Origin: a virus
Virus record (IMG/VR): IMGVR_UViG_3300042197_002149
Location: 1-39,200 of that record
Strand: one strand, 5' to 3'
DNA length: 39,200 nt
Below are positions 27,797 to 36,979 of the stretch, piece after piece. Every line of letters begins with the position of its first letter. Within the stretch, counting starts at the first letter, position 1. The position numbers were made by a program, and so were the translations under genes. The notes below the pieces were generated by a model. It was not told where the DNA came from, did no database searches, and saw only the letters and a list, made by a program, of their open reading frames with translations.

Positions 27797-27964
27797 TTAC
27801 CAGTCTACTTCCAGGTCTTCCACATAAGCCTCCACGGTCTCATCACCATCGAGTTGGAATAACTTTCGCCAATCAATCTGTCGGGCATCAAAGTCACTGT
27901 ACACGGAAAGATCCAGTGTCACACGCACATTCTTTTTCTGGGCTTGAAGATAAGAAACTGACAT
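27797..27964 (-). CDS. 55-residue small protein, unknown function
   Basis: An ORF starting MSVSYLQAQKKNVRVTLDLS and ending VEAYVEDLEVDW, with an acidic second half. It is the first gene behind the consensus promoter at 27997-28025, about 25 bases from the expected transcript start. The promoter carries the GGCC motif shared by the early cassettes. Function is not recognised. Confidence 0.7.
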   Translation of the reverse strand: MSVSYLQAQKKNVRVTLDLSVYSDFDARQIDWRKLFQLDGDETVEAYVEDLEVDW

Positions 27965-27996
27965 GGTTTTAGAGTGCCGAGGAACTAACTGTGGCC

Positions 27997-28025
27997 AGTA
28001 TAAGATGCGGGGGAGAAACTGTCAA
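27997..28025 (-). promoter_or_regulatory. consensus sigma70 promoter with GGCC motif
   Basis: The minus strand shows -35 TTGACA (28020-28025), a 17-base spacer and -10 TATACT (27997-28002), followed at once by GGCC. It is among the strongest promoters in the window by match. It drives the 55- and 44-residue ORFs. Confidence 0.85.
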
Positions 28026-28271
28026 GACCTGCAGAGTATTTATCAGCGGGTCTTATAAGATTTGGGAGGATTGTGGGGATTTGGTGATCTCCGAGATCTT
28101 GACATTTCTCTGCGGTTGTGGTAGCCTGCAGGCTAAGATCACAAGGTCTCAGCACATTTATAAGGCATAAAAAGCGCAGCACATTCTCAACAATGACCCT
28201 AATTGATTCTCAATTAATAACACTTATTGAGAATCATCAAAACATTTCAGCTTAATTAAAAAAAGGCTTTT
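28026..28271. other. palindrome-rich intergenic region
   Basis: About 245 bases without a convincing gene. It holds a 14-bp perfect palindrome TAGCCTGCAGGCTA (28122-28135), a 13-base odd palindrome GATCTCCGAGATC (28086-28098), and an inverted repeat with 11-bp arms TGATTCTCAAT (28204-28214) and ATTGAGAATCA (28226-28236). A third copy of ATTCTCAA begins at about 28183. The large inverted repeat lies just after the HicA-like gene and might end or regulate its transcript, though no T run follows it. The 65-codon frame at 27985-28182 has no family features. Confidence 0.55.
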
Positions 28272-28469
28272 TCATTTGATTTTAACCATTTTACGTTGAA
28301 TATCACGTTCAATTTGGTTCAGAGCATGACGACAAGAGGGTGTAGCACTGGTGAAGATCTTCAGACCTGAGGGATGCTGCCACACTAAATGTTTCGAGGT
28401 TCGCTGTAACTGAAACTGATAAGACTCCATCAGGACGGTGAGTTCTTTCTTGAACGTTTTGCTGCTCAT
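28272..28469 (-). CDS. HicA-like small RNA-binding/toxin-fold protein
   Basis: A 65-residue protein resembling HicA/YcfA mRNA-interferase folds. It has TSKHLVWQHPSGLKIF (residues 24-39) with His27 and His32 near the position of the catalytic His of HicA, then TPS and HALNQIERDIQRK, which matches the family's second helix. HicA toxins act with a HicB antitoxin, but no HicB-like gene is next to it. The gene overlaps the preceding ORF by four bases (ATGA). It may be a solo phage RNA-binding protein rather than a toxin. Confidence 0.65.
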   Translation of the reverse strand: MSSKTFKKELTVLMESYQFQLQRTSKHLVWQHPSGLKIFTSATPSCRHALNQIERDIQRKMVKIK

Positions 28470-28633
28470 TGTTCTACCTGAGTGATAGCTTGAAGATCAG
28501 AGAGTGCTAAACTGATTGCTGCTTTGGCATAACCGAGACGCTCGTATTCATCTTTCTTGGATGATACAAACTCCAATGCTTCAGTGAGTGTGGAGATCGC
28601 AAGATTGAGTTTATGAACTGTAAAGTCAGTCAT
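28466..28633 (-). CDS. 55-residue helical protein coupled to the HicA-like gene
   Basis: A short ORF beginning MTDFTVHKLNLAISTLTEAL, predicted all-helical (KLNLAISTL, GYAKAAISLALSDLQ). I chose the ATG at 28633; a TTG nine codons further up (28660) is an alternative. The frame overlaps the HicA-like start by ATGA and the 41-residue ORF end by 8 bases. As the direct partner of a HicA-like gene it could be an unusual antitoxin, but it does not resemble HicB, so this is conjecture. Confidence 0.6.
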   Translation of the reverse strand: MTDFTVHKLNLAISTLTEALEFVSSKKDEYERLGYAKAAISLALSDLQAITQVEQ

Positions 28634-28751
28634 GAGCTGTGGATTGAATTGTGTTACCAATGAGATGGAAGAGTTCCCCTGTATTATACCTTAAAGATGG
28701 GGAGAGTATAAAGAACAGGAGAAGAATGATCGGGAAAATGTTCTTCTTCAT
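28626..28751 (-). CDS. 41-residue putative membrane peptide
   Basis: An ORF beginning MKKNIFPIILLLFFILSPSL, a clear N-terminal signal or membrane helix after two lysines, followed by about 20 polar residues. Its ATG overlaps the TGA of the 104-residue gene (TGATG), and its end overlaps the next ORF by 8 bases. These couplings favour a real gene. Against it, a TATAAT box (28683-28688) lies within it, so the stretch may instead be a promoter region. Confidence 0.45.
   Translation of the reverse strand: MKKNIFPIILLLFFILSPSLRYNTGELFHLIGNTIQSTAHD
28683..28688 (-). promoter_or_regulatory. -10 box TATAAT before the HicA-like pair
   Basis: The minus strand reads GGTATAAT about 50 bases before the ATG at 28633. 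No good -35 lies 16-18 bases upstream. It could be an activator-dependent promoter for the HicA-like pair, or chance. Confidence 0.4.
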
Positions 28752-29065
28752 CAGTTCAGGCGCATACCATCGAAGAAAGGAATCACGTCGTTGTTGTAGC
28801 GAATGAACCACTCAAAGTTCTTTTGGAAAATGTACTCACCAGGGCAGCCATGCTCAGCGAGAATAGCATTAAGGCGAGACTTTGTGGTGTTGGTACGATA
28901 GCCACAGGAATCAAGTTCAATCCAAGTCTCACCAATGCGAGCGATCAGATGACCGTGGAGATACACATCGCTGGAGTTAGTATAAGAAATCACCTGAGTG
29001 TTTGCACACTTGAAGTCAACACCATTGGTGATAGCGTTGTTCATTTGGCGTTCGATCTTCCGCAT
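28751..29065 (-). CDS. 104-residue conserved cyanophage-type protein
   Basis: The protein starts MRKIERQMNNAITNGVDFK and contains YLHGHLIARIGETWIELDSC, GYRTNTTKSRLNAILAE and FEWFIRYNNDVIPFFDG, an alpha/beta protein I recognise only as a phage hypothetical. The frame is open up to 29194 but would then read through the promoter cassette, so I place the start at 29065; Met at 29044 is an alternative. The leader between cassette and start has a GC-rich inverted sequence (GAGGGGGAG against CCCCCCCTC) that may fold. It is coupled to the 41-residue ORF. Confidence 0.7.
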   Translation of the reverse strand: MRKIERQMNNAITNGVDFKCANTQVISYTNSSDVYLHGHLIARIGETWIELDSCGYRTNTTKSRLNAILAEHGCPGEYIFQKNFEWFIRYNNDVIPFFDGMRLN

Positions 29066-29127
29066 GAGAGTGTAGAGAAAGGGTTGGTGGTGGTGAGGGG
29101 GGGTCGTTCCCTCCCCCTCATGTGGCC

Positions 29128-29187
29128 AATATACGGCAGCCAGGGGGCCCTTACAAGGGGGCTTGTGCAGCCTTGTGGACTGGCACA
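29128..29187 (-). promoter_or_regulatory. PeSL-like cassette A (stem-loop plus promoter)
   Basis: The minus strand has an imperfect hairpin with TGTG and CACA ends (29164-29187), then -35-like TTGTAA, 17 bases, and -10 TATATT (29128-29133) followed by GGCC. It is the most upstream control element for the 104-residue gene. Confidence 0.65.
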
Positions 29188-29199
29188 GTGGCATCCTGA

Positions 29200-29319
29200 T
29201 TAGTCTTTAAGAAAGCAGACAATCTCACCGGATTCAATATCATTCAGCAGTTGCAATAGATCGTTGCCAGTGGTAGAGAATTGATCCAGGACTTGAATGA
29301 AAAACTGTTTGCGAGTCAT
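29200..29319 (-). CDS. 39-residue protein, MTR family
   Basis: A tiny ORF beginning MTRKQFFIQVLDQFSTTGND and ending EIVCFLKD. It shares the MTR start, the T-T-G-N centre and the LLxxLxxIE end with the 44-residue ORF at 27589-27723. It lies just upstream of cassette A and 29 bases after the 57-residue ORF. It is likely an all-helical peptide of unknown role. Confidence 0.65.
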   Translation of the reverse strand: MTRKQFFIQVLDQFSTTGNDLLQLLNDIESGEIVCFLKD

Positions 29320-29348
29320 GGTAAGATGTGCGATGTTTGTGTTAGAAA

Positions 29349-29522
29349 TCAACCTTCAAGAAGTTCAGGATAGTATTCCTCAACCTCAGCAATCAGTTCT
29401 TCATCGCTATAACCTTGCAGACTTTCTTCAATCTGATCGCCTACAAGTCGCATCAAATCTTTGGTGGACATGTTGTCAAGAATACGATCAATGTATGCTT
29501 CTAGGAGTTCTTGGCGGTTCAT
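29349..29522 (-). CDS. 57-residue conserved cyanophage protein
   Basis: An acidic helical ORF starting MNRQELLEAYIDRILDNMS, with GDQIEESLQGYSDEELIAEV and ending EYYPELLEG. I recognise this peptide family as common in cyanomyoviruses, often in the same variable region. An in-frame start at 29564 would add 14 residues that overlap the previous gene; the ATG at 29522 fits the family start better. Function unknown. Confidence 0.75.
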   Translation of the reverse strand: MNRQELLEAYIDRILDNMSTKDLMRLVGDQIEESLQGYSDEELIAEVEEYYPELLEG

Positions 29523-29563
29523 AGAATTGTCGGAGTTGGAATGTGGATTAGGAAGGGCAATCA

Positions 29564-29773
29564 TCAGACAATGAAGTTAGAATCAGGATCAAATGTAACC
29601 TCGGAAATGACATCAAACTCATCAGTCATTTTCACATAATTCCACTCATTGTCATTCTCACCTTGCTGATAAACATGAATGAAATTGTCGGAATCTTGCT
29701 TTACATAACAACCATCATAATTCTCCTCATCATAAACATAACCTGCAGCGATCAGAGCATCAGTGAATGTCAT
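29564..29773 (-). CDS. 69-residue small protein behind cassette B
   Basis: The protein starts MTFTDALIAAGYVYDEENYD and has YVKQDSDNFIHVYQQGENDN, then NYVKMTDEFDVISEV: an acidic alpha/beta domain, possibly with a short beta sheet. The open frame extends to 29821, but those first 16 codons translate the repeated leader (giving PYIGHVER), so the true start is at 29773, just behind the SD-like GAGAGGA. No function is recognised. Confidence 0.75.
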   Translation of the reverse strand: MTFTDALIAAGYVYDEENYDGCYVKQDSDNFIHVYQQGENDNEWNYVKMTDEFDVISEVTFDPDSNFIV

Positions 29774-29797
29774 GGGGTGATTCCTCTCAACATGGCC

Positions 29798-29858
29798 AAT
29801 ATACGGTGGATCTGGGAGCAAGTCTAGTGGGTGTGTGCCACCTTGTTGACTGTCACAC
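29798..29858 (-). promoter_or_regulatory. PeSL-like cassette B (stem-loop plus promoter)
   Basis: The minus strand has GTGTG and CACAC arms (about 29833-29858) overlapping the stop of the upstream gene, then a 4/6 -35 (TAGACT), 17 bases and -10 TATATT (29798-29803) with GGCC. The leader GGCCATGTTGAGAGGA supplies the ribosome site for the gene at 29773. Confidence 0.75.
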
Positions 29859-30112
29859 TACACCAGGACGTGACGATAGTCCAGCGATTTAATACACCAA
29901 CCAGTCGCAGCTGTGATCTCTTCGACTAGATCCTCCTCATCCACAGCTTCCCAGATTTGTCCTACTGTGTCAGAAGTTACCATCTCTTGGTATTCTTGCC
30001 ATTCCTCATCTGTGCCACGGAGAATGTCATTATCCTCAGTGAAATCAAACTCGATGGATGTAACTTGGAATTGCATTGTTCGAGGGTGAATGTGTTGTTT
30101 AATCAGAGACAT
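29858..30112 (-). CDS. 84-residue acidic conserved cyanophage protein
   Basis: An ORF starting MSLIKQHIHPRTMQFQVTS and running through IEFDFTEDNDILRGTDEEW, with many Asp/Glu. The ATG at 30112 shares its A with the TAA of the upstream gene (TAATG), which favours this start over Met13. The C-terminal GWCIKSLDYRHVLV looks like a buried beta strand. The last codons overlap the stem-loop of cassette B. I recognise it only as a phage hypothetical; an acidic DNA mimic is possible but unsupported. Confidence 0.7.
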   Translation of the reverse strand: MSLIKQHIHPRTMQFQVTSIEFDFTEDNDILRGTDEEWQEYQEMVTSDTVGQIWEAVDEEDLVEEITAATGWCIKSLDYRHVLV

Positions 30113-30273
30113 TAGACGGATGGGGTGACGTTAATCTCCTTAACATTCAGTCCACAGAGCTGATTGTAGACACGGTTAAGAATCAATTTATCGGCAGACT
30201 TTGCCTTGCTTTTCTCATACCAAACAGTAACACATCCGTCGTAGGTTTCAACTTGCACACGATAGTTTTTCAT
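30112..30273 (-). CDS. 53-residue small beta-rich protein
   Basis: An ORF starting MKNYRVQVETYDGCVTVWYE, then KSKAKSADKLILNRVYNQL and KEINVTPSV. The pattern of strand, basic helix and strand suggests a compact alpha/beta fold. The stop codon overlaps the next ATG (TAATG), and the start lies three bases after the preceding stop, so it belongs to a coupled group headed by cassette C. No function is recognised. Confidence 0.7.
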   Translation of the reverse strand: MKNYRVQVETYDGCVTVWYEKSKAKSADKLILNRVYNQLCGLNVKEINVTPSV

Positions 30274-30276
30274 GAT

Positions 30277-30444
30277 TCAGTATGCAGAAACAGTGGTGAA
30301 AATGATGCCAGTCTCGTTATAGCGAAGATCAACATCGCACTGGTATTCTTCACTCAAATTGTATGCGATGTCATAAGCTCTGTCGAGATCAGTAGTGTGA
30401 TTCTCCCAGGGAGCTGCGTGGCACTTGATGTCAACTCGGGTCAT
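30277..30444 (-). CDS. 55-residue small protein behind cassette C
   Basis: The protein starts MTRVDIKCHAAPWENHTTDL, followed by AYDIAYNLSEEYQCDVDLRY and ending IIFTTVSAY. I set the start at 30444; upstream in-frame codons (MAMLRGTQ) come from the repeated leader GGCCATGTTGAGAGGA and are probably untranslated, although in this case the leader ATG is in frame. It is the first gene of a coupled group that runs down to 29858. Function unknown. Confidence 0.7.
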   Translation of the reverse strand: MTRVDIKCHAAPWENHTTDLDRAYDIAYNLSEEYQCDVDLRYNETGIIFTTVSAY

Positions 30445-30466
30445 TTGTGTTCCTCTCAACATGGCC

Positions 30467-30525
30467 AATATACGATGCCTGGCTGCCCTGTGGGGGCACT
30501 TGTGGCCAGTCTGTGGACTGGCACA
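30467..30525 (-). promoter_or_regulatory. PeSL-like cassette C (strong stem-loop plus promoter)
   Basis: This cassette has the best hairpin: TGTGCCAGTC and GACTGGCCACA arms around CACA (30501-30525), ten pairs with one bulge. The -10 is TATATT (30467-30472) followed by GGCC. No good -35 is visible, so an activator or the GGCC element may matter here. Confidence 0.65.
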
Positions 30526-30532
30526 GGGTAGA

Positions 30533-30805
30533 CTATACCATCACAAGTTGTTTGGTAGGTTGAACAGAATAGGTGAAATGTGCTGCCGTTACAGATGCAC
30601 CAGCGAGACCAATTTCATCAACAATTTTCCATGAATCTTTAGTTTCTTCGATGACAATGTAACCGAAAGTGCCAGCGATGGGCATTTGCTCTAGACCACA
30701 CTTTTCTGCTTGTCGTTGTGTGGTAAAATACTCTTTACGATTCCACCAACCGTTGCGAGCAACATTATCAGAAGGACCAAAGCTGATGCAAACGTAGTTA
30801 GTCAT
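30533..30805 (-). CDS. 90-residue conserved protein, unknown function
   Basis: The protein starts MTNYVCISFGPSDNVARNGW, then WNRKEYFTTQRQAEKCG, GTFGYIVIEETKDSWKIVDE and a C-terminal AAHFTYSVQPTKQLVMV. It appears to be a small alpha/beta protein with a beta-rich centre. The open frame extends to 30886, overlapping the upstream gene, but the ATG at 30805, 28 bases after that gene's stop, is more likely. I know no function. Confidence 0.7.
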   Translation of the reverse strand: MTNYVCISFGPSDNVARNGWWNRKEYFTTQRQAEKCGLEQMPIAGTFGYIVIEETKDSWKIVDEIGLAGASVTAAHFTYSVQPTKQLVMV

Positions 30806-30833
30806 GGTTTTGTGAGTTAGAGTGAAGAATGAA

Positions 30834-31070
30834 TCAGAAGTGTGCTTCAGACCAGTCAAGTTTATCGCTGTACTTTGCGATGCCATCGTAACAACGACCT
30901 GCCATCAGATCATCACCATCAGCAATATAACCTTTGAGAAACTCGAAGCAGTATTTAATACGCAACTCGGGTGCAATCGCAGCGAGTTGTTGTTGCTTAC
31001 GCTGATAAGCTGCGTTGTAAGCAAACATCTCCCGATCTTCAATGCTGACGGTGTGAAATTTGCGATCCAT
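30834..31070 (-). CDS. 78-residue helical protein behind cassette D
   Basis: An ORF starting MDRKFHTVSIEDREMFAYNA, then YQRKQQQLAAIAPELRIKYC and GYIADGDDLMAGRCYDGIAK. It is probably all-helical, with a basic first helix. The start lies just behind the leader GAGAGGG of cassette D. It is followed 28 bases later by the 90-residue gene. I cannot assign a family. Confidence 0.7.
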   Translation of the reverse strand: MDRKFHTVSIEDREMFAYNAAYQRKQQQLAAIAPELRIKYCFEFLKGYIADGDDLMAGRCYDGIAKYSDKLDWSEAHF

Positions 31071-31094
31071 GGGGTGATCCCTCTCAACATGGCC

Positions 31095-31140
31095 AATATA
31101 CGACGGATGGCCCCCTAGGTCAAGGGGCTGAACGATCAGC
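31095..31140 (-). promoter_or_regulatory. PeSL-like cassette D (stem-loop plus strong promoter)
   Basis: The minus strand has a GCTGA-TCGT-TCAGC hairpin (31127-31140) overlapping the upstream gene end, then -35 TTGACC (31118-31123), 17 bases, and -10 TATATT (31095-31100) followed by GGCC. This member makes the promoter reading of the whole family convincing. Confidence 0.85.
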
Positions 31141-31318
31141 GTATTTTATGAGTGAAATTGCGTTTCATAAGATTCTTGCATACCACAAATCTTTCCCACT
31201 CTCTATCACTAAAGTTGTCAGATGCGTATGGGATACCAACAATGTAAGCACAAGCTTTGTTGATTCTTTCTTCTATCTGTGCAGTGGAGAGTGATGCGAT
31301 CAGTGCAAGTTCAATCAT
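31136..31318 (-). CDS. 60-residue small helical protein
   Basis: An ORF starting MIELALIASLSTAQIEERIN, then KACAYIVGIPYASDNFSDRE and ending KRNFTHKIR. The N-terminal helix is hydrophobic but short, so membrane insertion is uncertain. Its start overlaps the 30-residue ORF by 8 bases, and its end overlaps the hairpin of cassette D. No family assigned. Confidence 0.7.
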   Translation of the reverse strand: MIELALIASLSTAQIEERINKACAYIVGIPYASDNFSDREWERFVVCKNLMKRNFTHKIR

Positions 31319-31403
31319 CTTTGTTTAAGTAATCAAAACGCTTGGAGAATAGAACAAAAAAGAACCACGCAAATGCTGCTGAGATGATAAGGAAATAGAT
31401 CAT
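31311..31403 (-). CDS. 30-residue single-pass membrane peptide
   Basis: A very short ORF, MIYFLIISAAFAWFFFVLF followed by SKRFDYLNKDD: one clear membrane helix with a basic, then acidic tail. The ATG overlaps the TGA of the 147-residue gene by four bases (ATGA), and the end overlaps the next gene by 8 bases. Double coupling plus an ideal membrane helix support a real gene. It may act in the host membrane; its role is unknown. Confidence 0.65.
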   Translation of the reverse strand: MIYFLIISAAFAWFFFVLFSKRFDYLNKDD

Positions 31404-31843
31404 TTCGCATAAAGGTAACCACCAGACCAATCAGCATTTTCCAGCAGGTATTCACGATCAGCAATCAATCGCAGATCATAACGAACACCCTTGGCAGGAG
31501 CTTTCCAAGATGCAGACTTGTACAGCTGTCCAGTTTGCTTATCAACGAAAGCATGAACAGAGCGACCACCACCACCATCAATCATGATGATTTTGTGATA
31601 CTTTTTACCAGTCTCAATAGTATAGTCAATGTCACACTTACCAGACTTCAGTTCTTCAATCTTACGCAGATGATATTGTGTCTGCACAGAATCAGAACCA
31701 TCATAGGTAAAGTTATAGTTCTCAGCGGAGCGTTGATGAGAACGAATCGAATACTGACGATAGTTATCTTTCAGTGCTTCAATCAGCAGACGAGTATTCT
31801 TAAGGACCGAATCTGCAATGGTTCGTTGTGCTTGGAGTTGCAT
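31400..31843 (-). CDS. 147-residue conserved cyanophage protein
   Basis: The protein starts MQLQAQRTIADSVLKNTRLL, has a long basic helical half, and then a conserved beta half: KKYHKIIMIDGGGGRSVHAF, VDKQTGQLYKSASWKAPAK and GVRYDLRLIADREYL. I recognise the YHKI...SVHAFVDxxTGxxYK block from many cyanomyoviruses, but it has no known function. The frame is open to 31891, where the extra residues (PYIGHVERN) translate cassette E; the ATG at 31843 is preferred. Confidence 0.8.
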   Translation of the reverse strand: MQLQAQRTIADSVLKNTRLLIEALKDNYRQYSIRSHQRSAENYNFTYDGSDSVQTQYHLRKIEELKSGKCDIDYTIETGKKYHKIIMIDGGGGRSVHAFVDKQTGQLYKSASWKAPAKGVRYDLRLIADREYLLENADWSGGYLYAK

Positions 31844-31864
31844 TGGATTCCTCTCAACATGGCC

Positions 31865-31924
31865 AATATACGGGATCTGGCTGCCCAGCACAAGGGGGCT
31901 TGTGACACTTATTCAAGTGGCACA
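31865..31924 (-). promoter_or_regulatory. PeSL-like cassette E (stem-loop plus promoter)
   Basis: The minus strand has a hairpin with TGTG/CACA and CACTT/AAGTG stems around GAAT (31901-31924), overlapping the 3' end of the 68-residue ORF. A weak -35 (TTGTGC), 17 bases, and -10 TATATT (31865-31870) followed by GGCC complete it. Confidence 0.7.
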
Positions 31925-32115
31925 GGGGGTGTCTCTCCTTCTATTTCAGATGATCTAGGCTGCGGTGCGATTGTATCAACTTTCACATTGTTCACATAAA
32001 TTGCAACTTCACCTTGCAATTCTGTTGCATAATGTTGACCTAACAGGTATGCTTCTTCAAGTGAACTGCAATGGTGATGATTGATGCCATTACTGATAAA
32101 GAACTCGTCTTGCAT
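31909..32115 (-). CDS. 68-residue small protein, unknown function
   Basis: An ORF starting MQDEFFISNGINHHHCSSLE, then EAYLLGQHYATELQGEVAIY and VNNVKVDTIAPQPRS. It seems to be a small alpha/beta protein with a polar, Pro-rich tail of about 18 residues that is encoded partly by the cassette E hairpin. The tail may have been acquired when the cassette inserted. It lies 26 bases after the nucleotidyltransferase-like gene. Confidence 0.65.
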   Translation of the reverse strand: MQDEFFISNGINHHHCSSLEEAYLLGQHYATELQGEVAIYVNNVKVDTIAPQPRSSEIEGETPPVPLE

Positions 32116-32141
32116 TGTTTTACTCTAACTGTTCTATTTAA

Positions 32142-33059
32142 TTACCAATCTTTGGGTTTGGTGAAGTTATAGTGAGAAAAGATGCGACGATTGACCAACT
32201 TAAACGAACCAAACTCATTGGAATGTACATAACCCTCATGACCTGGGATACAATCAATATCAAGATCAAGCTTTGCATCAACTTGATCACCTGTAATCTC
32301 AATTCCCTCCATGATTAACAGTTTCGCTTGCGTCAACAGATCAAACAACCACAGCAAATTGCCGTCGATGCAATCAATTACATGATTTTCTCGGATGCAC
32401 TTATTGATTGCAATTTTCAGTTCTTCTTGTTCTTTTTTGGTCTCAGGGTACTTAACAAAATTGCTAATCACACTTGCCAGACCAAGAATAAAATCAATTC
32501 GACGAGAACGGGTGGCAAACTGTGCATCTGGATTGATAAAACGAGTGCGAAGAAAATTGTATTTGAGATGCTCTGGAATGTCAAAAGATGCGGTGAGTTC
32601 TTTCATAGAATCACCAAAATACGAAGTATGTGCTACAAATACGATAGAAGTGTCGAGAAAAGTAACATCTGCACAGTCAAAAGAATACGAAAGAGTATTC
32701 GGAGTGAACGAATGTTTGCCACCATAACCAATAAAGTCACCCTGATAAATGCCATCAACTTGAGGCAATACTTCCAGGCAAGTGTGAAGAATAGCTGCAA
32801 CTTTCTGATTGTTACCATGATTTCTCTCAATGCAATCATGAGTATAATTAATCTTTACTTTGACTTTGTTGAATACACTCTTGGTGCCAACAAAAAACTT
32901 ACCATTCTCGGGATTTGTGCCGAATACGATAGCAGGAGCGCCATCATACTTCACACTACAACTACCTTTACAGTTACGCAGATAGTTGATAGTATCCTGT
33001 ACAGCTTTCTTACCAAGCAGTACAGAATCTTCGGGATGTTCGAGGTGAGTGTTCTTCAT
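32142..33059 (-). CDS. putative covalent nucleotidyltransferase / ligase-like protein (DUF6267-like)
   Basis: A 305-residue protein. Residues 35-46 (SVKYDGAPAIVF) match the KxDG nucleotidyl-binding motif I of ATP-dependent ligases and capping enzymes, with Lys37 as the likely AMP acceptor. GIYQGDFIGYGG (103-114) fits motif III, EGYVH (275-279) motif IV and FKLVNRR (286-292) motif V. A helical region of about 100 residues lies between. I associate it with a phage family of unknown function (DUF6267). Its substrate, RNA, DNA or protein, is unknown. The start MKNTHLEHPEDS at 33059 lies only six bases after the -10 box, so the message may be leaderless. A 254-codon frame on the other strand is a shadow. 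Confidence 0.75.
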   Translation of the reverse strand: MKNTHLEHPEDSVLLGKKAVQDTINYLRNCKGSCSVKYDGAPAIVFGTNPENGKFFVGTKSVFNKVKVKINYTHDCIERNHGNNQKVAAILHTCLEVLPQVDGIYQGDFIGYGGKHSFTPNTLSYSFDCADVTFLDTSIVFVAHTSYFGDSMKELTASFDIPEHLKYNFLRTRFINPDAQFATRSRRIDFILGLASVISNFVKYPETKKEQEELKIAINKCIRENHVIDCIDGNLLWLFDLLTQAKLLIMEGIEITGDQVDAKLDLDIDCIPGHEGYVHSNEFGSFKLVNRRIFSHYNFTKPKDW

Positions 33060-33065
33060 GTGGCC

Positions 33066-33099
33066 ATCATACAGCAAAAAAGGGGTCTGTAAAGACCCC
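33066..33099 (-). promoter_or_regulatory. promoter nested in a terminator hairpin
   Basis: The minus strand has a terminator-like hairpin GGGGTC-TTTACA-GACCCC followed by six T (33076-33099). The loop TTTACA (33088-33093) is also a 5/6 -35, with a 16-base spacer to -10 TATGAT (33066-33071), followed by GGCC. The same DNA probably ends the upstream transcript and starts the nucleotidyltransferase-like gene. Confidence 0.75.
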
Positions 33100-33109
33100 A
33101 TGTGACAGT

Positions 33110-33268
33110 TTAAGAATCGGCACACTCTTTGAGTTCTTTCACACGTTCATGACGTAGCTTCAGAAGATCACGATAACGCTTGTGCTGTTCTTTTGTGAGT
33201 TGAAAATAGTTGCGATGCCACTCAGTACGCAACTCTTTCATTTCTTTCATTACTTCAGAAGATTTCAT
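33110..33268 (-). CDS. 52-residue basic coiled-coil protein
   Basis: An ORF starting MKSSEVMKEMKELRTEWHRN, then YFQLTKEQHKRYRDLLKLRH and ending KELKECADS. It is almost entirely one charged helix, likely a coiled coil, rich in Arg, Lys and Glu. I recognise the YFxLxKEQHKRY segment from cyanophages. It follows the 39-residue ORF by two bases and ends ten bases before the terminator hairpin. Function unknown. Confidence 0.75.
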   Translation of the reverse strand: MKSSEVMKEMKELRTEWHRNYFQLTKEQHKRYRDLLKLRHERVKELKECADS

Positions 33269-33270
33269 AA

Positions 33271-33390
33271 TCAGTAATCGTATTCAGCGTTGATGTATTC
33301 GTTGAAGTCAAACTTGTCATCATAATCTTCAACAATGTCAAAGATTTCGCCAGGCATGTCTTGAATCTCAGACCAAAGCTCGTCGAACAT
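33271..33390 (-). CDS. 39-residue acidic conserved cyanophage peptide
   Basis: A tiny ORF, MFDELWSEIQDMPGEIFDIV, then EDYDDKFDFNEYINAEYDY: about 13 acidic and one basic residue. I recognise this peptide from cyanomyoviruses. It is the first gene behind the strong promoter at 33415-33444, which suggests early and high expression. Such small acidic phage proteins often bind a host protein; no target is known here. Confidence 0.8.
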   Translation of the reverse strand: MFDELWSEIQDMPGEIFDIVEDYDDKFDFNEYINAEYDY

Positions 33391-33414
33391 GGTTTGTCTC
33401 TCAGGAACAAGGCC

Positions 33415-33444
33415 ATAATACATGGGATGGGGGTCGCGTGTCAA
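33415..33444 (-). promoter_or_regulatory. strong sigma70 promoter with GGCC motif
   Basis: The minus strand shows perfect -35 TTGACA (33439-33444), an 18-base spacer and -10 TATTAT (33415-33420), followed by GGCC and a leader with GAGAGA before the ATG at 33390. The -35 overlaps the stop region of the 76-residue gene. Confidence 0.85.
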
Positions 33445-33671
33445 CTTAGTGGACGGTTCTGCAATTGGCCATTATCTATGTGAATGTAAATGGGTTGATC
33501 ATCATTCCAATGGCGAATTACGCCCGCAACGATAAAACAATTAGTAAGAAGATAAGTGATGAATATAAAAGTCCGTATACGAGCCACGTTGTCTGCTTCT
33601 CGGTCATCTTTACCTGCCTTTTCTCCTATTGCTTTTGCCCAAAGTCTCCAATGAGTGTTATTATTTTTCAT
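33441..33671 (-). CDS. 76-residue membrane protein, conserved in cyanophages
   Basis: An ORF starting MKNNNTHWRLWAKAIGEKAG, then KDDREADNVARIRT, with one membrane helix FIFITYLLTNCFIVAGVI (about residues 35-52), followed by RHWNDDQPIYIHID. The basic side before the helix predicts a cytoplasmic N-terminus. I recognise the KxDREAD...RTFIFxTY pattern from cyanophages. It overlaps the oxygenase stop by four bases (ATGA). Function unknown. Confidence 0.8.
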   Translation of the reverse strand: MKNNNTHWRLWAKAIGEKAGKDDREADNVARIRTFIFITYLLTNCFIVAGVIRHWNDDQPIYIHIDNGQLQNRPLS

Positions 33672-34249
33672 GATAAATTAAATGCGATTGAAATACGATC
33701 CTCATCCGATTGATTTGGTTCAACAAGATGATGTAAATGTGCTGGGAATAACACTAAAACTCCTTCTTTTGGAATAAACTCAAAGGTGTAATCATAATTA
33801 TGTTCTTTTTGCACTTCTTTATCTATTGAGTTCAATAAATTATGCTCAACGAAATTATGTGGATTATGAAATACCAATTTTCCACAATTATCTGGCGCTT
33901 TTATCCAAAATACACCAGATAAATTACACCTAGGGTGACAGTGAGAAACATTATAATTATTTTTCTTGTTAATATTGATCCACATATTATCTAAATTAAA
34001 TTTAAGATTGTAGTGAGTCAACGATTGAAAAGTATTGTTTAAAATATAATTCCTAAACTCTAAAAATGATTCTTGATTATGAAAATCTGATGGAGATTGC
34101 CAACCTCCACGATTACTAAATTGAACACTTTCTGTGGTTGATTGATAGTTATAAATCCATTCAATTAAATCGTTACGAATGTAACTGTATAAATCACACT
34201 CAGTTTTTGTAATAATTGATGGAAATACTGTATAATTATGCACTCTCAT
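33668..34249 (-). CDS. 2OG-Fe(II) oxygenase (2OG-FeII_Oxy_5 type)
   Basis: A 193-residue dioxygenase with the full family signature: NVSHCHPRCNLSGVFWIKAP carries the proximal HxH ligands, KLVFHNPHN follows, and EGVLVLFPAHLHHLVEPN then DEDRISIAFN supply the distal His and the 2-oxoglutarate-binding Arg. It is more typical than the copy at 26328-26888. The family hydroxylates proteins or nucleic-acid-linked substrates in cyanophages, but the substrate is not established. It overlaps the genes on both sides by four bases, in a dense coupled operon. Confidence 0.88.
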   Translation of the reverse strand: MRVHNYTVFPSIITKTECDLYSYIRNDLIEWIYNYQSTTESVQFSNRGGWQSPSDFHNQESFLEFRNYILNNTFQSLTHYNLKFNLDNMWININKKNNYNVSHCHPRCNLSGVFWIKAPDNCGKLVFHNPHNFVEHNLLNSIDKEVQKEHNYDYTFEFIPKEGVLVLFPAHLHHLVEPNQSDEDRISIAFNLS

Positions 34250-34422
34250 TTTTCTGTGAGTTTGTTTATGTTCTTAAAGTCTGATTTATTTACAACAACA
34301 CAAACATCCTGTGATCTATGCTTTCCTTTGACCACAAGTATAGAAAGAGAGTGATCACAAATAAATGTGACCACTCCTACAACTTCTTTATACTTAACAG
34401 TCTCACCCTCAGCAAACTGCAT
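34246..34422 (-). CDS. 58-residue small beta-barrel-like protein
   Basis: The protein starts MQFAEGETVKYKEVVGVVTF, then ICDHSLSILVVKGKHRSQDV and CVVVNKSDFKNINK: five short strands typical of an SH3-like or KOW-like barrel. The start is fixed by GGAGG seven bases upstream; the open frame runs further up to 34473. It lies within the end of the 59-residue gene (14-base overlap) and overlaps the oxygenase start by four bases. Confidence 0.7.
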   Translation of the reverse strand: MQFAEGETVKYKEVVGVVTFICDHSLSILVVKGKHRSQDVCVVVNKSDFKNINKLTEK

Positions 34423-34588
34423 CAAGATCCTCCATAAATATCCAATCGTCAGGCTCTTCACCATCAACAACAAACTCTAGATACAGTGCATCAGCATCAT
34501 CTAAACGATCTTTATCCACTAGATAACACATTTGATGATTCCAATGATCTTCAATTTCAACCAGGATTTGACGATGTAGATTAGTCAT
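34409..34588 (-). CDS. 59-residue acidic conserved cyanophage protein
   Basis: An ORF starting MTNLHRQILVEIEDHWNHQM, then CYLVDKDRLDDADALYLEFV and ending EEPDDWIFMEDLDAVC. It has about 17 acidic residues. It overlaps the 93-residue gene by four bases and the next gene by 14, and the SD of that next gene lies inside its coding sequence. I recognise it as a cyanophage hypothetical with no known role. Confidence 0.7.
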   Translation of the reverse strand: MTNLHRQILVEIEDHWNHQMCYLVDKDRLDDADALYLEFVVDGEEPDDWIFMEDLDAVC

Positions 34589-34866
34589 GATAACGCAGCT
34601 TCAAGAGGGTTCATTTTGATTTGCATCGCAGAGTAAGGTGTAGTTTTCTGTGCGTCTACTACACTACCCACTGTCGATGAATTAACTGGGGCATGGTATT
34701 GTCCTGTTTTGGAATTGTAGAATCCCCAGATGCACTTAACAGGTTCACCATTATTATAATCGTAAATGCGATCATCACAGATCCAAATGGCAGTGACATT
34801 ACGCTTGAAAAATGTTTGTTCATAATGATAATTCTGTGGTGCTTTATGGGGAAACTTTACTGCCAT
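34585..34866 (-). CDS. 93-residue conserved cyanophage protein
   Basis: An ORF starting MAVKFPHKAPQNYHYEQTFF, then KRNVTAIWICDDRIYDYNNG and CIWGFYNSKTGQYHAPVNSS. The central part is beta-rich and aromatic. It begins two bases after the 77-residue gene's stop and overlaps the 59-residue gene start (ATGA). I recognise it from cyanophages but cannot assign a function. Confidence 0.75.
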   Translation of the reverse strand: MAVKFPHKAPQNYHYEQTFFKRNVTAIWICDDRIYDYNNGEPVKCIWGFYNSKTGQYHAPVNSSTVGSVVDAQKTTPYSAMQIKMNPLEAALS

Positions 34867-34868
34867 AA

Positions 34869-35102
34869 TCAGGTGATGAATGAGTCAATAATGCGGGATT
34901 CTTGTTCTTCAGCAAGTGCAAAACGTGGTGCCTTGACGATGTTTGCTAGAATACGATCATCATAGGATTCTGCATAATCATCACGCCAACTCAGCAATAG
35001 ATCGTGACATTCATTATCATCTTTGGCAATTACAGTGATTGTGCCACCGTATTCTGAAGTGGGAAAACCAACCCAATAATCGACAATGTAAAGTGATTTC
35101 AT
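34869..35102 (-). CDS. 77-residue conserved cyanophage protein
   Basis: An ORF starting MKSLYIVDYWVGFPTSEYGG, then TITVIAKDDNECHDLLLSWR and FALAEEQESRIIDSFIT: a small alpha/beta domain. It is the first gene behind the promoter at 35126-35154, which lies inside the end of the upstream 51-residue ORF. GGAG is not obvious before the ATG. Function unknown. Confidence 0.75.
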   Translation of the reverse strand: MKSLYIVDYWVGFPTSEYGGTITVIAKDDNECHDLLLSWRDDYAESYDDRILANIVKAPRFALAEEQESRIIDSFIT

Positions 35103-35115
35103 CTTTTCTGATTAA

Positions 35116-35271
35116 CTACTCCTTAATTTTAGATGATTGTTCCATGTTTGTCAACGCTTGCTGTTTGTAGTATGCTTTATACATGCGATCATCGCGTTGG
35201 ATTAGAAAAATGTTCCAACCAATAATAGCAAGGAAACCAAGTGAAAATGCGGTCAGATACTTCTTGTTCAT
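35116..35271 (-). CDS. 51-residue membrane-anchored small protein
   Basis: An ORF, MNKKYLTAFSLGFLAIIGWN, then IFLIQRDDRMYKAYYKQQ and a polar tail ending KIKE. Basic residues followed by a hydrophobic helix (about residues 6-24) predict a single-pass membrane anchor with the tail outside the cytoplasm. Its ATG overlaps the TGA of the 134-residue gene by four bases. The last codons contain the promoter for the next gene. Confidence 0.7.
   Translation of the reverse strand: MNKKYLTAFSLGFLAIIGWNIFLIQRDDRMYKAYYKQQALTNMEQSSKIKE
35126..35154 (-). promoter_or_regulatory. intragenic sigma70 promoter
   Basis: The minus strand shows perfect -35 TTGACA (35149-35154), 17 bases and -10 TAAAAT (35126-35131), in the last part of the 51-residue ORF. 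It precedes the ATG at 35102 by 23 bases, the same geometry and hexamers as the promoter at 26303-26331. Confidence 0.75.
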
Positions 35272-35672
35272 GCTGCAGCTCCTGCGGGAATTTCAACACC
35301 TTCCATGTAGGAATCGTGCCACTTACAAGTATCATAACACAACCAACCTTCAGATTCAGTGAAGACGTAACCAAACTCTTCATTATTCTGAAGAAACTCT
35401 GCCAGGTTATTGTCTAAACGAGGAGGGCAATCTTCACCACGCGAAGCATAATACAGGGGACCAACAGTAGGCAGAGTTTCATTCTGCCAACCAGCATTAG
35501 TACGAAGCGCAGAAATATCACCACCGTCGATCAGTTCGCGCACCTGATCTTCAGTGTTATAATGTGTGCGAAGAACACGACCATTAAAAGACGGATAGCC
35601 GTCATAATGACAATAAACAGACACGATTTGTCCGTCTTTAAGTTCTAGACCGATGCGAGAGCGGGTTGCCAT
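35268..35672 (-). CDS. 134-residue conserved phage protein (MATRSRIG family)
   Basis: An ORF starting MATRSRIGLELKDGQIVSVY, then CHYDGYPSFNGRVLRTHYN, RELIDGGDISALRT and PRLDNNLAEFLQNNEEFGYV. I recognise the MATRSRIGxE...YCHYDGYP signature as a family widespread in phages and some bacteria, without a known activity. It is the first gene behind cassette F and is coupled to the 51-residue membrane protein. The C-terminus contains WHDSYMEGVEIPAGAAA. Confidence 0.82.
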   Translation of the reverse strand: MATRSRIGLELKDGQIVSVYCHYDGYPSFNGRVLRTHYNTEDQVRELIDGGDISALRTNAGWQNETLPTVGPLYYASRGEDCPPRLDNNLAEFLQNNEEFGYVFTESEGWLCYDTCKWHDSYMEGVEIPAGAAA

Positions 35673-35695
35673 GTGGTGCTTGTCTCAACATGGCC

Positions 35696-35752
35696 AATAT
35701 ACGATGCTCAGACTGCCATAGGGGAATCAGTGGACAGCCTGCAAACTGTCAC
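35696..35752 (-). promoter_or_regulatory. PeSL-like cassette F (stem-loop plus promoter)
   Basis: The minus strand has GTGACAG and CTGTCCAC arms (35730-35752) overlapping the end of the 68-residue ORF, then -10 TATATT (35696-35701), GGCC and the leader CATGTTGAGA. No clear -35 is seen. It drives the MATRSRIG gene. Confidence 0.65.
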
Positions 35753-35955
35753 TCGCTCAGTGCTGATCCACGCCAATTCTTTGGAGCTGGAGGATCACAC
35801 TTTCCTTCTAAAGAACGTACCATTAGCTCAGCAAACTTTTCCATTTTTTCTGATGATACTGTTTGTGGAGCATAACTGATAGCATCTTTTAATGCTACCA
35901 GTTCATTCCACTCTTCTGTGCTAAGATTCTCTGAACCAGTTTTAGCAAGAGTCAT
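35749..35955 (-). CDS. 68-residue conserved cyanophage protein
   Basis: An ORF starting MTLAKTGSENLSTEEWNELV, then ALKDAISYAPQTVSSEKMEK and FAELMVRSLEGK. I recognise the TEEWNELxALKDAI...KMEKFxELMVRSL pattern from cyanomyoviruses. It is all-helical with a Pro-rich tail of about 14 residues that overlaps the cassette F hairpin. GGAGGG lies just before the ATG. Function unknown. Confidence 0.8.
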   Translation of the reverse strand: MTLAKTGSENLSTEEWNELVALKDAISYAPQTVSSEKMEKFAELMVRSLEGKCDPPAPKNWRGSALSE

Positions 35956-35976
35956 AATCCCTCCAAGTGTGCGGCT

Positions 35977-36005
35977 ATCATAACATTCATATCCTGCACT
36001 ATCTA
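35977..36005 (-). promoter_or_regulatory. sigma70-like promoter before the 68-residue gene
   Basis: The minus strand has -35 TAGATA (36000-36005, 4/6), 17 bases, and -10 TATGAT (35977-35982), followed by AGCC, one base from the GGCC found in the other cassettes. A GGAGGG ribosome site follows. Confidence 0.6.
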
Positions 36006-36038
36006 TAAATTTAACAATTTCTTTGGGATCATGAAACT

Positions 36039-36332
36039 TTACATAGTAAATCTATCAGATTTTGCCTGTCGAATAGCATTATCTTGTCCTAGATCAATCT
36101 TAAAATGTTGTAATTCTTCTTTCTTGGCTTTACGAACTTCGTATGTACTTTTCGCACGTTCTCCCCAGAAAAGTTTATCTCCTTCCTTTAATTTGAGATG
36201 CTTTCTTACTTCATTTGGAATAGAAATAATATATTCTTCTTTTCCATTTTCATTTCTGACCCTCTCTACAGGTAATGTCCAAATGGCTTCAGGCATTGCC
36301 TCAGATCCAAATTCTTCTAATTTTCTAGGCAT
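36039..36332 (-). CDS. AbrB-like (swapped-hairpin) DNA-binding protein
   Basis: A 97-residue protein with an AbrB/MazE-type swapped-hairpin domain: TLPVERVRNENGKEEYIISI, then PNEVRKHLKLKEGDKLFW. The pattern of strand, P-x-x-V/L-helix and EGD turn is the family signature. Such proteins bind DNA as dimers, as transcription regulators or antitoxins. The C-terminal 35 residues are basic. It overlaps the 164-residue protein by 8 bases; that protein ends in a related domain. No toxin gene is next to it. Confidence 0.75.
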   Translation of the reverse strand: MPRKLEEFGSEAMPEAIWTLPVERVRNENGKEEYIISIPNEVRKHLKLKEGDKLFWGERAKSTYEVRKAKKEELQHFKIDLGQDNAIRQAKSDRFTM

Positions 36333-36819
36333 GATCTACTTTTTTTAATGTAAATGAACCGTCATTATTATCTATCCACTCAATTTGATCGCCTTCAGAA
36401 ATGTTTGCTGCTTCTAGCAAATCATCTGGGAAACTAATAAAATATTCTGTTTCGTCAGTATCAAAATCCTTAACTTCTTCAACAGGTAGTCTCCATGTTT
36501 TAACTCGATCTGGCGCTTCTTTTTCTACAATTTCCCAAAAATCATTCCAAGCACTTTTACATTCTGGTGAGGGATCATCTTTATCACAGGTAAATGGCTC
36601 ACCAGTTGCACTGAGATCAACTGGACGATGGCCACTCATCAGTTCTAACAGTCCAAAACATTTTTGAGATTGTTCTTTATGATAGTTGTACTCATCTTGC
36701 ACAACTTTACGAATAGTAGAATAGATTTCATGGGGCGATGCCTCTGCACTTGAGAGTGCATCATGTAACCAATTCTCTAGATTTTCAAGAGAATACTTTT
36801 TATAATCAAAGTCAGTCAT
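36325..36819 (-). CDS. 164-residue protein with helical N-domain and AbrB-like C-domain
   Basis: The protein starts MTDFDYKKYSLENLENWLHD, has a helical half (residues 1-70, ALSSAEASPHEIYSTIRKV), an acidic linker with CDKDDPSPECKSAW, and a C-terminal AbrB-like segment (about 105-163): WRLPVEEVKDFDTDETEYFI, then LEAANISEGDQIEW. The C-domain closely parallels the downstream 97-residue protein, so the pair arose by duplication or fusion. I chose the ATG at 36819 because the upstream frame overlaps the 55-residue gene. It may be a DNA-binding regulator. Confidence 0.75.
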   Translation of the reverse strand: MTDFDYKKYSLENLENWLHDALSSAEASPHEIYSTIRKVVQDEYNYHKEQSQKCFGLLELMSGHRPVDLSATGEPFTCDKDDPSPECKSAWNDFWEIVEKEAPDRVKTWRLPVEEVKDFDTDETEYFISFPDDLLEAANISEGDQIEWIDNNDGSFTLKKVDHA

Positions 36820-36979
36820 GTTTCTTATAAACTCGCTTGAGATCTTTGTAAAGTTCTTTAATCTGCTCATAGGCCTGGTCTTCAGTGAGTTTATCACCCA
36901 GTTCAAGACCCACAATCAATTCTACACGATCACCGAATCGTGCAAGTGTTTTTTCAAAATGTGTTAAGTCTTCGTACAT
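36812..36979 (-). CDS. 55-residue helical protein
   Basis: An ORF starting MYEDLTHFEKTLARFGDRVE, then LIVGLELGDKLTEDQAYEQI and KELYKDLKRVYKKHD. It is helical, with an acidic first and basic last part. It overlaps the next gene by 8 bases. A late-like TATAAATG box lies 15 bases before the ATG, so it heads an operon with the AbrB-like pair. Function unknown. Confidence 0.75.
   Translation of the reverse strand: MYEDLTHFEKTLARFGDRVELIVGLELGDKLTEDQAYEQIKELYKDLKRVYKKHD

Follow-up and report, generated by a model that had tools for sequence, protein, structure and literature searches.

Candidate PlmA-responsive promoters with a lineage-specific GGCC discriminator before small genes of a putative T4-like cyanophage

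The stretch analysed here (the window) is the whole of the 39.2-kb virus record IMGVR_UViG_3300042197_002149, positions 1 to 39,200, and our subject is a set of promoter-like boxes, TATNNT followed directly by GGCC, together with a palindromic element (dyad) that precedes most of them. In our reading of its gene order against annotated gp25/gp6 regions, the window appears to derive from a T4-like cyanophage; within the phage collection, the DNA matches it most closely in phages of Synechococcus and Prochlorococcus, none of which covers more than a few percent of the query. The large genes lie on the minus strand, and small genes are clustered in the interval from 27 to 36 kb, where G+C is raised over most of the length. 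The motif TATNNTGGCC occurs in exactly nine copies in the window, all on the minus strand within 28.0-35.7 kb, and in none on the plus strand. Each promoter is named here after the base at which its -10 box begins, namely 28002, 29133, 29803, 30472, 31100, 31870, 33071, 33420 and 35701; a preliminary description of this DNA used the base at which the box ends.

The nine boxes proposed in that description were confirmed, as was their enrichment over random TATNNT words. GGCC follows 9 of 368 such words on the minus strand of the whole window and none of 326 on the plus strand, and within 27900-36100 it follows 9 of the 69 minus-strand words (P ~1e-14 versus first-order expectation), while dinucleotide shuffles yielded a mean of 0.33 boxes over the whole window and 0.08 within this interval. 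Scarcity of GGCC as the source of the pattern can be ruled out, since the window holds 27 occurrences against 20.5 expected; GGCC is not rare, and the enrichment at the boxes is therefore positional. The boxes precede genes, with a plausible start codon 12-38 bp downstream in eight of the nine and a gap of 68 bp at 29133. They look like promoter cores of the small-gene region, which is probably early, and the nine are almost certainly promoters of a cyanobacterial virus. Known RNA families gave sub-threshold matches only in this region. A tenth promoter suggested earlier, at 35982 (TATGAT-AGCC), is present as letters; it is probably a chance occurrence, with no upstream dyad, a poor -35 match (TAGATA) and a leader unlike the conserved block.

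Scanning viral contigs for TATNNTGGCCATGTTGAG returned at least 119 related stretches, bearing out the expectation that the motif is common to related cyanophages. The alignment of 159 unique copies, selected on the downstream block alone, contained a second conserved block, the dyad GTGnCAGTT-N4-AACTGnCAC of about 22 bp, whose centre lies 40-42 bp upstream of the -10 box, counted to the first base of the latter (near -53). It adjoins the -35 position on the upstream side, its spacing to the TANNNT -10 box is fixed, and it is found in 160 of the 168 promoters that share the GCCATGTTGAGAG block. Seven of the nine window copies possess it, with scores of 18.8-26.0, the two without it being 28002 and 31100. 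The promoters are composed as follows, where the -10 coordinates cover the box plus GGCC and the dyad scores are matrix scores at the register.

35730-35753, minus strand: dyad (putative CGRE1-like operator) of promoter 35701, matrix score 23.7
35692-35701, minus strand: -10 TATATT plus GGCC, leader ATGTTGAGACAAG, gene start at 35672
33449-33472, minus strand: dyad of promoter 33420, score 19.5; TTGACA also present, 18-bp spacer
33411-33420, minus strand: -10 TATTAT plus GGCC, start of a tiny gene at 33390
33101-33124, minus strand: dyad of promoter 33071, score 19.1
33062-33071, minus strand: -10 TATGAT plus GGCC, DUF6267 gene start at 33059, the predicted +1 (probably leaderless)
31901-31924, minus strand: dyad of promoter 31870, score 20.5
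31861-31870, minus strand: -10 TATATT plus GGCC, DUF7717 gene start at 31843
31091-31100, minus strand: -10 TATATT plus GGCC of a dyad-less promoter, TTGACC 17 bp upstream, dyad score -6.5, -35 score 8/9, gene start at 31070
30502-30525, minus strand: dyad of promoter 30472, score 26.0, the highest in the window
30463-30472, minus strand: -10 TATATT plus GGCC, gene start at 30444
29834-29857, minus strand: dyad of promoter 29803, score 21.1
29794-29803, minus strand: -10 TATATT plus GGCC, gene start at 29773
29164-29187, minus strand: dyad of promoter 29133, score 18.8
29124-29133, minus strand: -10 TATATT plus GGCC, Kyano_Gp96 gene start at 29065
27993-28002, minus strand: -10 TATACT plus GGCC of a dyad-less promoter, TTGACA 17 bp upstream, dyad score -11.0, -35 score 9/9, gene start at 27964

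The dyad is widely distributed among cyanomyoviruses. A scan for the exact dyad gave at least 119 unique sites, none of those among the listed matches having TANNNTGGCC within 60 bp, and at most of the sites printed a -10-like box follows at about the usual distance. Composites, defined as a dyad plus TANNNT at 29+-1 bp, mostly lacked GGCC and were present in each of the six further cyanomyoviruses that were scanned: 7 in Syn9 (six of them at 44.8-53.1 kb), 22 in S-CRM01, 10 in DSL-LC02 and 12 in S-PM2 (first 50 kb), as well as in the stretches read of S-CAM9 and S-T4. A small number are either a single dyad read on both strands or weak matches that stand alone, and the shuffled controls yielded zero save one match. 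Two dyad promoters of Syn9 (44827 and 48611) fall at or inside the annotated starts of gp61 and gp73, the true start codons of which may lie further downstream. Over all phage loci there were 912 unique composites, 146 with GGCC and 71 with AGCC, in a sample biased by the searches that supplied the loci. The letters that follow the -10 box are alike within a phage and lineage-dependent between phages, being (G/A)GCCATGTTGAGAGG in the window, S-CAM9 and S-T4, ATAAGAGTCAAAGG in Syn9, TAAAGAGTCAAAG in DSL-LC02 and AGCTAAGTGGTCAAGAGG in S-CRM01.

Since the dyad is intergenic and adjoins the promoter, and a terminator-like hairpin with a T-run lies between dyad and -10 box in some cases (33071 and several in S-CRM01), it might be read as an RNA stem-loop at which the preceding transcript terminates or is processed, within a PeSL cassette such as those of T4-like coliphages. 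This explanation is barely credible, and the dyad was rejected as an RNA hairpin or terminator. Over the 912 copies, C.A/A.C mismatches within the dyad (345) are no rarer than T.G/G.T mismatches (270), so that there is no wobble bias; the half-site variants are uncoupled between the two sides, no T-run follows the dyad and its distance to the -10 box is fixed. Moreover, the dyad also occurs before host Yfr2 genes at an equal distance. These properties suggest that it behaves as a DNA site rather than an RNA hairpin.

A TTGACA-like -35 box at a spacing of 16-18 bp is good in 28002, 31100 and 33420, middling in 29133 and 33071, and weak in the other four (29803, 30472, 31870 and 35701), for which the weak -35 boxes noted in the preliminary description are therefore correct. 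Both dyad-less window copies carry such a box (TTGACA in 28002, TTGACC in 31100), and 33420 has dyad and TTGACA together. Across the 168 promoters that share the GCCATGTTGAGAG block, TTGAC was present in 8 of the 160 with a dyad (5%) versus all six clear dyad-less ones, a difference for which the Fisher P of 1e-7 is optimistic, some of the six being near-identical. An earlier, noisier test, in a set that held coding false positives, had given a weak rank correlation between dyad and -35 box and no difference in mean -35 score; the cleaner set of 168 was adopted after that result was known. Because the dyad-less copies have TTGAC and the dyad copies mostly do not, it is the dyad, not GGCC, that accompanies a weak -35 box. 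Dyad and -35 box thus appear to be ALTERNATIVES, and weak -35 boxes are probably compensated by the dyad and not by GGCC.

It had been proposed that GGCC is functional in itself, as a discriminator or phage-factor site that sets the choice of start and offsets weak -35 boxes. Its location in the discriminator was supported, and GGCC directly follows the -10 box in all nine window copies, in dyad and TTGAC promoter types alike; sigma region 1.2 reads the discriminator there, and a contribution to promoter strength is plausible. As an account of the promoters, however, this proposal is improbable. GGCC is present whatever the -35 box, and the first discriminator base tolerates A among relatives: promoters with AGCC have a mean -35 score of 5.02, compared to 5.26 with G (P = 0.28), and hence no stronger -35 boxes. 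In addition, GGCC is absent from most dyad promoters of other cyanophages, and the weak -35 boxes are explained by the dyad, so that a compensating role found no support from either the AGCC comparison or the trade-off between dyad and -35 box. On the simplest reading GGCC is a secondary feature, a discriminator specific to the lineage. Together with ATGTTGAGAGG it may form a lineage-specific downstream core, a single block that unites the discriminator with the start region and the ribosome site; this core would serve both promoter types and would most simply be read by RNA polymerase itself. The upstream ATG of ATGTTGAGAGG was rejected as the start of a leader peptide, as reading frames vary among copies (by eye), and so was a conserved hairpin in the 29133 leader, where the letters are conserved and the stem is inconsistent.

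Several promoters have features of their own. For the DUF6267 gene (PF19782), the gene start in the window (33059-33071, minus strand) coincides with the predicted +1, exactly 12 bp from the base that opens the -10 box; most of the relatives listed, among them 14 loci, share this arrangement, and the mRNA of the gene is therefore probably leaderless. A terminator-like hairpin with a T-run (GGGGTCTTTACAGACCCCTTTTTT) at 33078-33102 on the minus strand fills the gap between the dyad and the -10 box of 33071; similar hairpins occur in S-CRM01 at 82913, 105681 and 137114, and in DSL-LC02. The dyad-less promoter at 31091-31140 (minus strand) belongs to a second promoter class, in which CTGATCGGTCAG-CCCC-TTGAC lies upstream of TATnnTGGCC and which is also seen at ten other loci. 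Just upstream of the TTGACA promoter 28002, GATAAATA at 28037-28044 (minus strand) resembles a T4-type late promoter, and late and early promoters may be combined here. Two further members of the cluster, both on the minus strand, are a putative 2OG-Fe(II) oxygenase (PF13759) at 33668-34249 and, at 36325-36915, a protein whose C-terminus resembles MazE weakly and below threshold.

Outside phages, the exact dyad was found in many heterocystous cyanobacteria, and in two loci it directly precedes the Rfam Cyano-1 RNA (RF01701), which we take to be the Yfr2 family from its GGAAACA loop and multiple copies. In five listed and other heterocystous cyanobacteria, the exact dyad is followed by GCAAGGAGTGATACCACTTCACC, a conserved stretch that matches no Rfam family above threshold and may be a small RNA not yet described. 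RF01701 matches were obtained in 43 of 44 chosen genomes, most of them of 1.9-3.1 Mb. The phage-trained matrix was applied to 26 distinct Yfr2 promoters, over the 90 bp that precede each start. In 20 of these, the end of the best site lay 40-42 bp upstream of +1; the corresponding distance in the phages is 41, with the predicted +1 placed 12 bp downstream of the base that opens the -10 box. Scores of at least 6 were reached by 54% of the 26 Yfr2 promoters versus 4% of flanks and 2.4% of shuffles, and the nominal P of 2e-22 for this match is too small, since related copies are included. Such a joint match in sequence and position would be hard to get otherwise.

According to PMC6778093, yfr2 promoters are bound via the element CGRE1 by the host GntR regulator PMM1637, through which Yfr2 is induced. 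Regulation of Yfr2 has been ascribed to PlmA, with which PMM1637 is equated, a partner of PII-PipX that is reduced by thioredoxin (PMC6243067, PMC7344720); in 2018 its regulon was still described as undefined (PMC6243067). Each of ten Yfr2-bearing genomes of potential hosts contains one GntR gene above the cut-off, with a very similar DNA-binding part; a search limited to GntR-type genes found none in the window or in five cyanophage genomes. A phage-coded GntR regulator was rejected on this ground, and for the same reason the binder of the dyad is likely a host protein. Of the earlier suggestion that a phage regulator binds at GGCC, the part that stands is that some regulator is probably involved; GGCC as its site is unsupported, and the likely binder comes from the host. 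We therefore consider it likely, on sequence grounds, that the boxes belong to PlmA-responsive (CGRE1-like) early promoters of the phage, with GGCC as a lineage-specific discriminator.

That PlmA binds the dyad is something we infer, and the phage search covered GntR-type genes only; moreover, a third half-site in the -35 region of some phage copies (three loci) is no known PlmA feature. A different factor might thus be involved, either another host regulator or a virion-delivered phage protein that copies the Yfr2 site. We regard this as unlikely in view of the agreement, in both sequence and position, with Yfr2 promoters reportedly regulated by PMM1637. Similarly low is the probability that the dyad is a repressor site, through which PlmA or a later regulator closes the promoters. 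Many GntR proteins are repressors, and a palindrome close to the -35 region can be the target of either kind of regulator, repressor or activator. However, most dyad promoters have no -35 box, as dependence on an activator predicts, and Yfr2 is described in PMC6778093 as induced via PMM1637. It is the missing -35 box and the position of the dyad that point to activation.

Seven of the nine boxes are the cores of promoters bearing the same dyad near -53 as that before host Yfr2 genes, and the phage most likely recruits host RNA polymerase to small, probably early genes with the aid of host PlmA. The other two (28002 and 31100) use a TTGAC -35 box instead. Use of PlmA would tie the small genes to PII-PipX nitrogen signalling and to the redox state. 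More tentatively, and with somewhat less confidence than doubt, early transcription of T4-like cyanophages may be wired in general to the host PII-PipX-PlmA nitrogen/redox sensor, with 7-22 PlmA sites per phage, outnumbering the few yfr2 sites in the host, drawing PlmA off Yfr2 and shifting the control of host photosynthesis, and with the GGCC lineage adding a fused discriminator-leader block and even leaderless mRNA. Several points weigh against PlmA-responsive promoters. Identity of the phage element with CGRE1 is no more than probable, the comparison having covered the Yfr2 promoters themselves. A dyad near -53 might serve a repressor as well. The Yfr2 set holds related copies, 6 of the 26 are off-spacing and several scores are low, and the exact dyad is absent, bar one match, from small (picocyanobacteria-sized) genomes, the host sites being looser variants. 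In a limited literature search, we found no description of the GGCC-leader sub-class, of the either/or relation with the -35 box or of the positional Yfr2 match; the link between phages and CGRE1 may already be in print. If the proposal is true, the host protein behind many cyanomyovirus early genes is named, the use of promoters without a -35 box by phages without MotA/AsiA is explained, infection is linked to the nitrogen, carbon and redox state of the host, and PlmA gains a large viral regulon, while the striking GGCC motif turns out to be secondary.

Doron and colleagues are said to have reported in 2016 (ISME J) that a novel element controls early genes of the T4-like cyanophage Syn9, and among the authors is Steglich, who is also senior author of the paper on CGRE1. 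The 7 composites in Syn9 probably represent that element; Syn9 differs from the window in having ATAAGAGTCAAAGG after the -10 box instead of GGCCATGTTGAGAGG. The arrangement is also reminiscent of T4 middle promoters, where an activator site, the MotA box, replaces the -35 box before a sigma70-type -10 box; in contrast to the putative host factor considered here, MotA is phage-coded and its box is short. Marine T4-like cyanophages have been reported to be without motA and/or asiA (PMC5780444). As in the PeSL cassettes of T4-like coliphages (Arbiol 2010; Comeau 2014), repeated promoter cassettes are placed among small variable genes, and 33071 overlaps a terminator-like hairpin, but the phage dyad appears to act as a DNA site and not as a hairpin, and in the window such a hairpin occurs only at 33071. 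The closest counterpart is CGRE1 of the yfr2 promoters (Lambrecht et al., 2018, as described in PMC6778093), with the dyad at an equal distance from +1 in 20 of the 26 Yfr2 promoters; the phages differ in that the dyad would drive protein genes, in 7-22 copies per phage, and in the lineage of the window with a fused GGCC-leader block.

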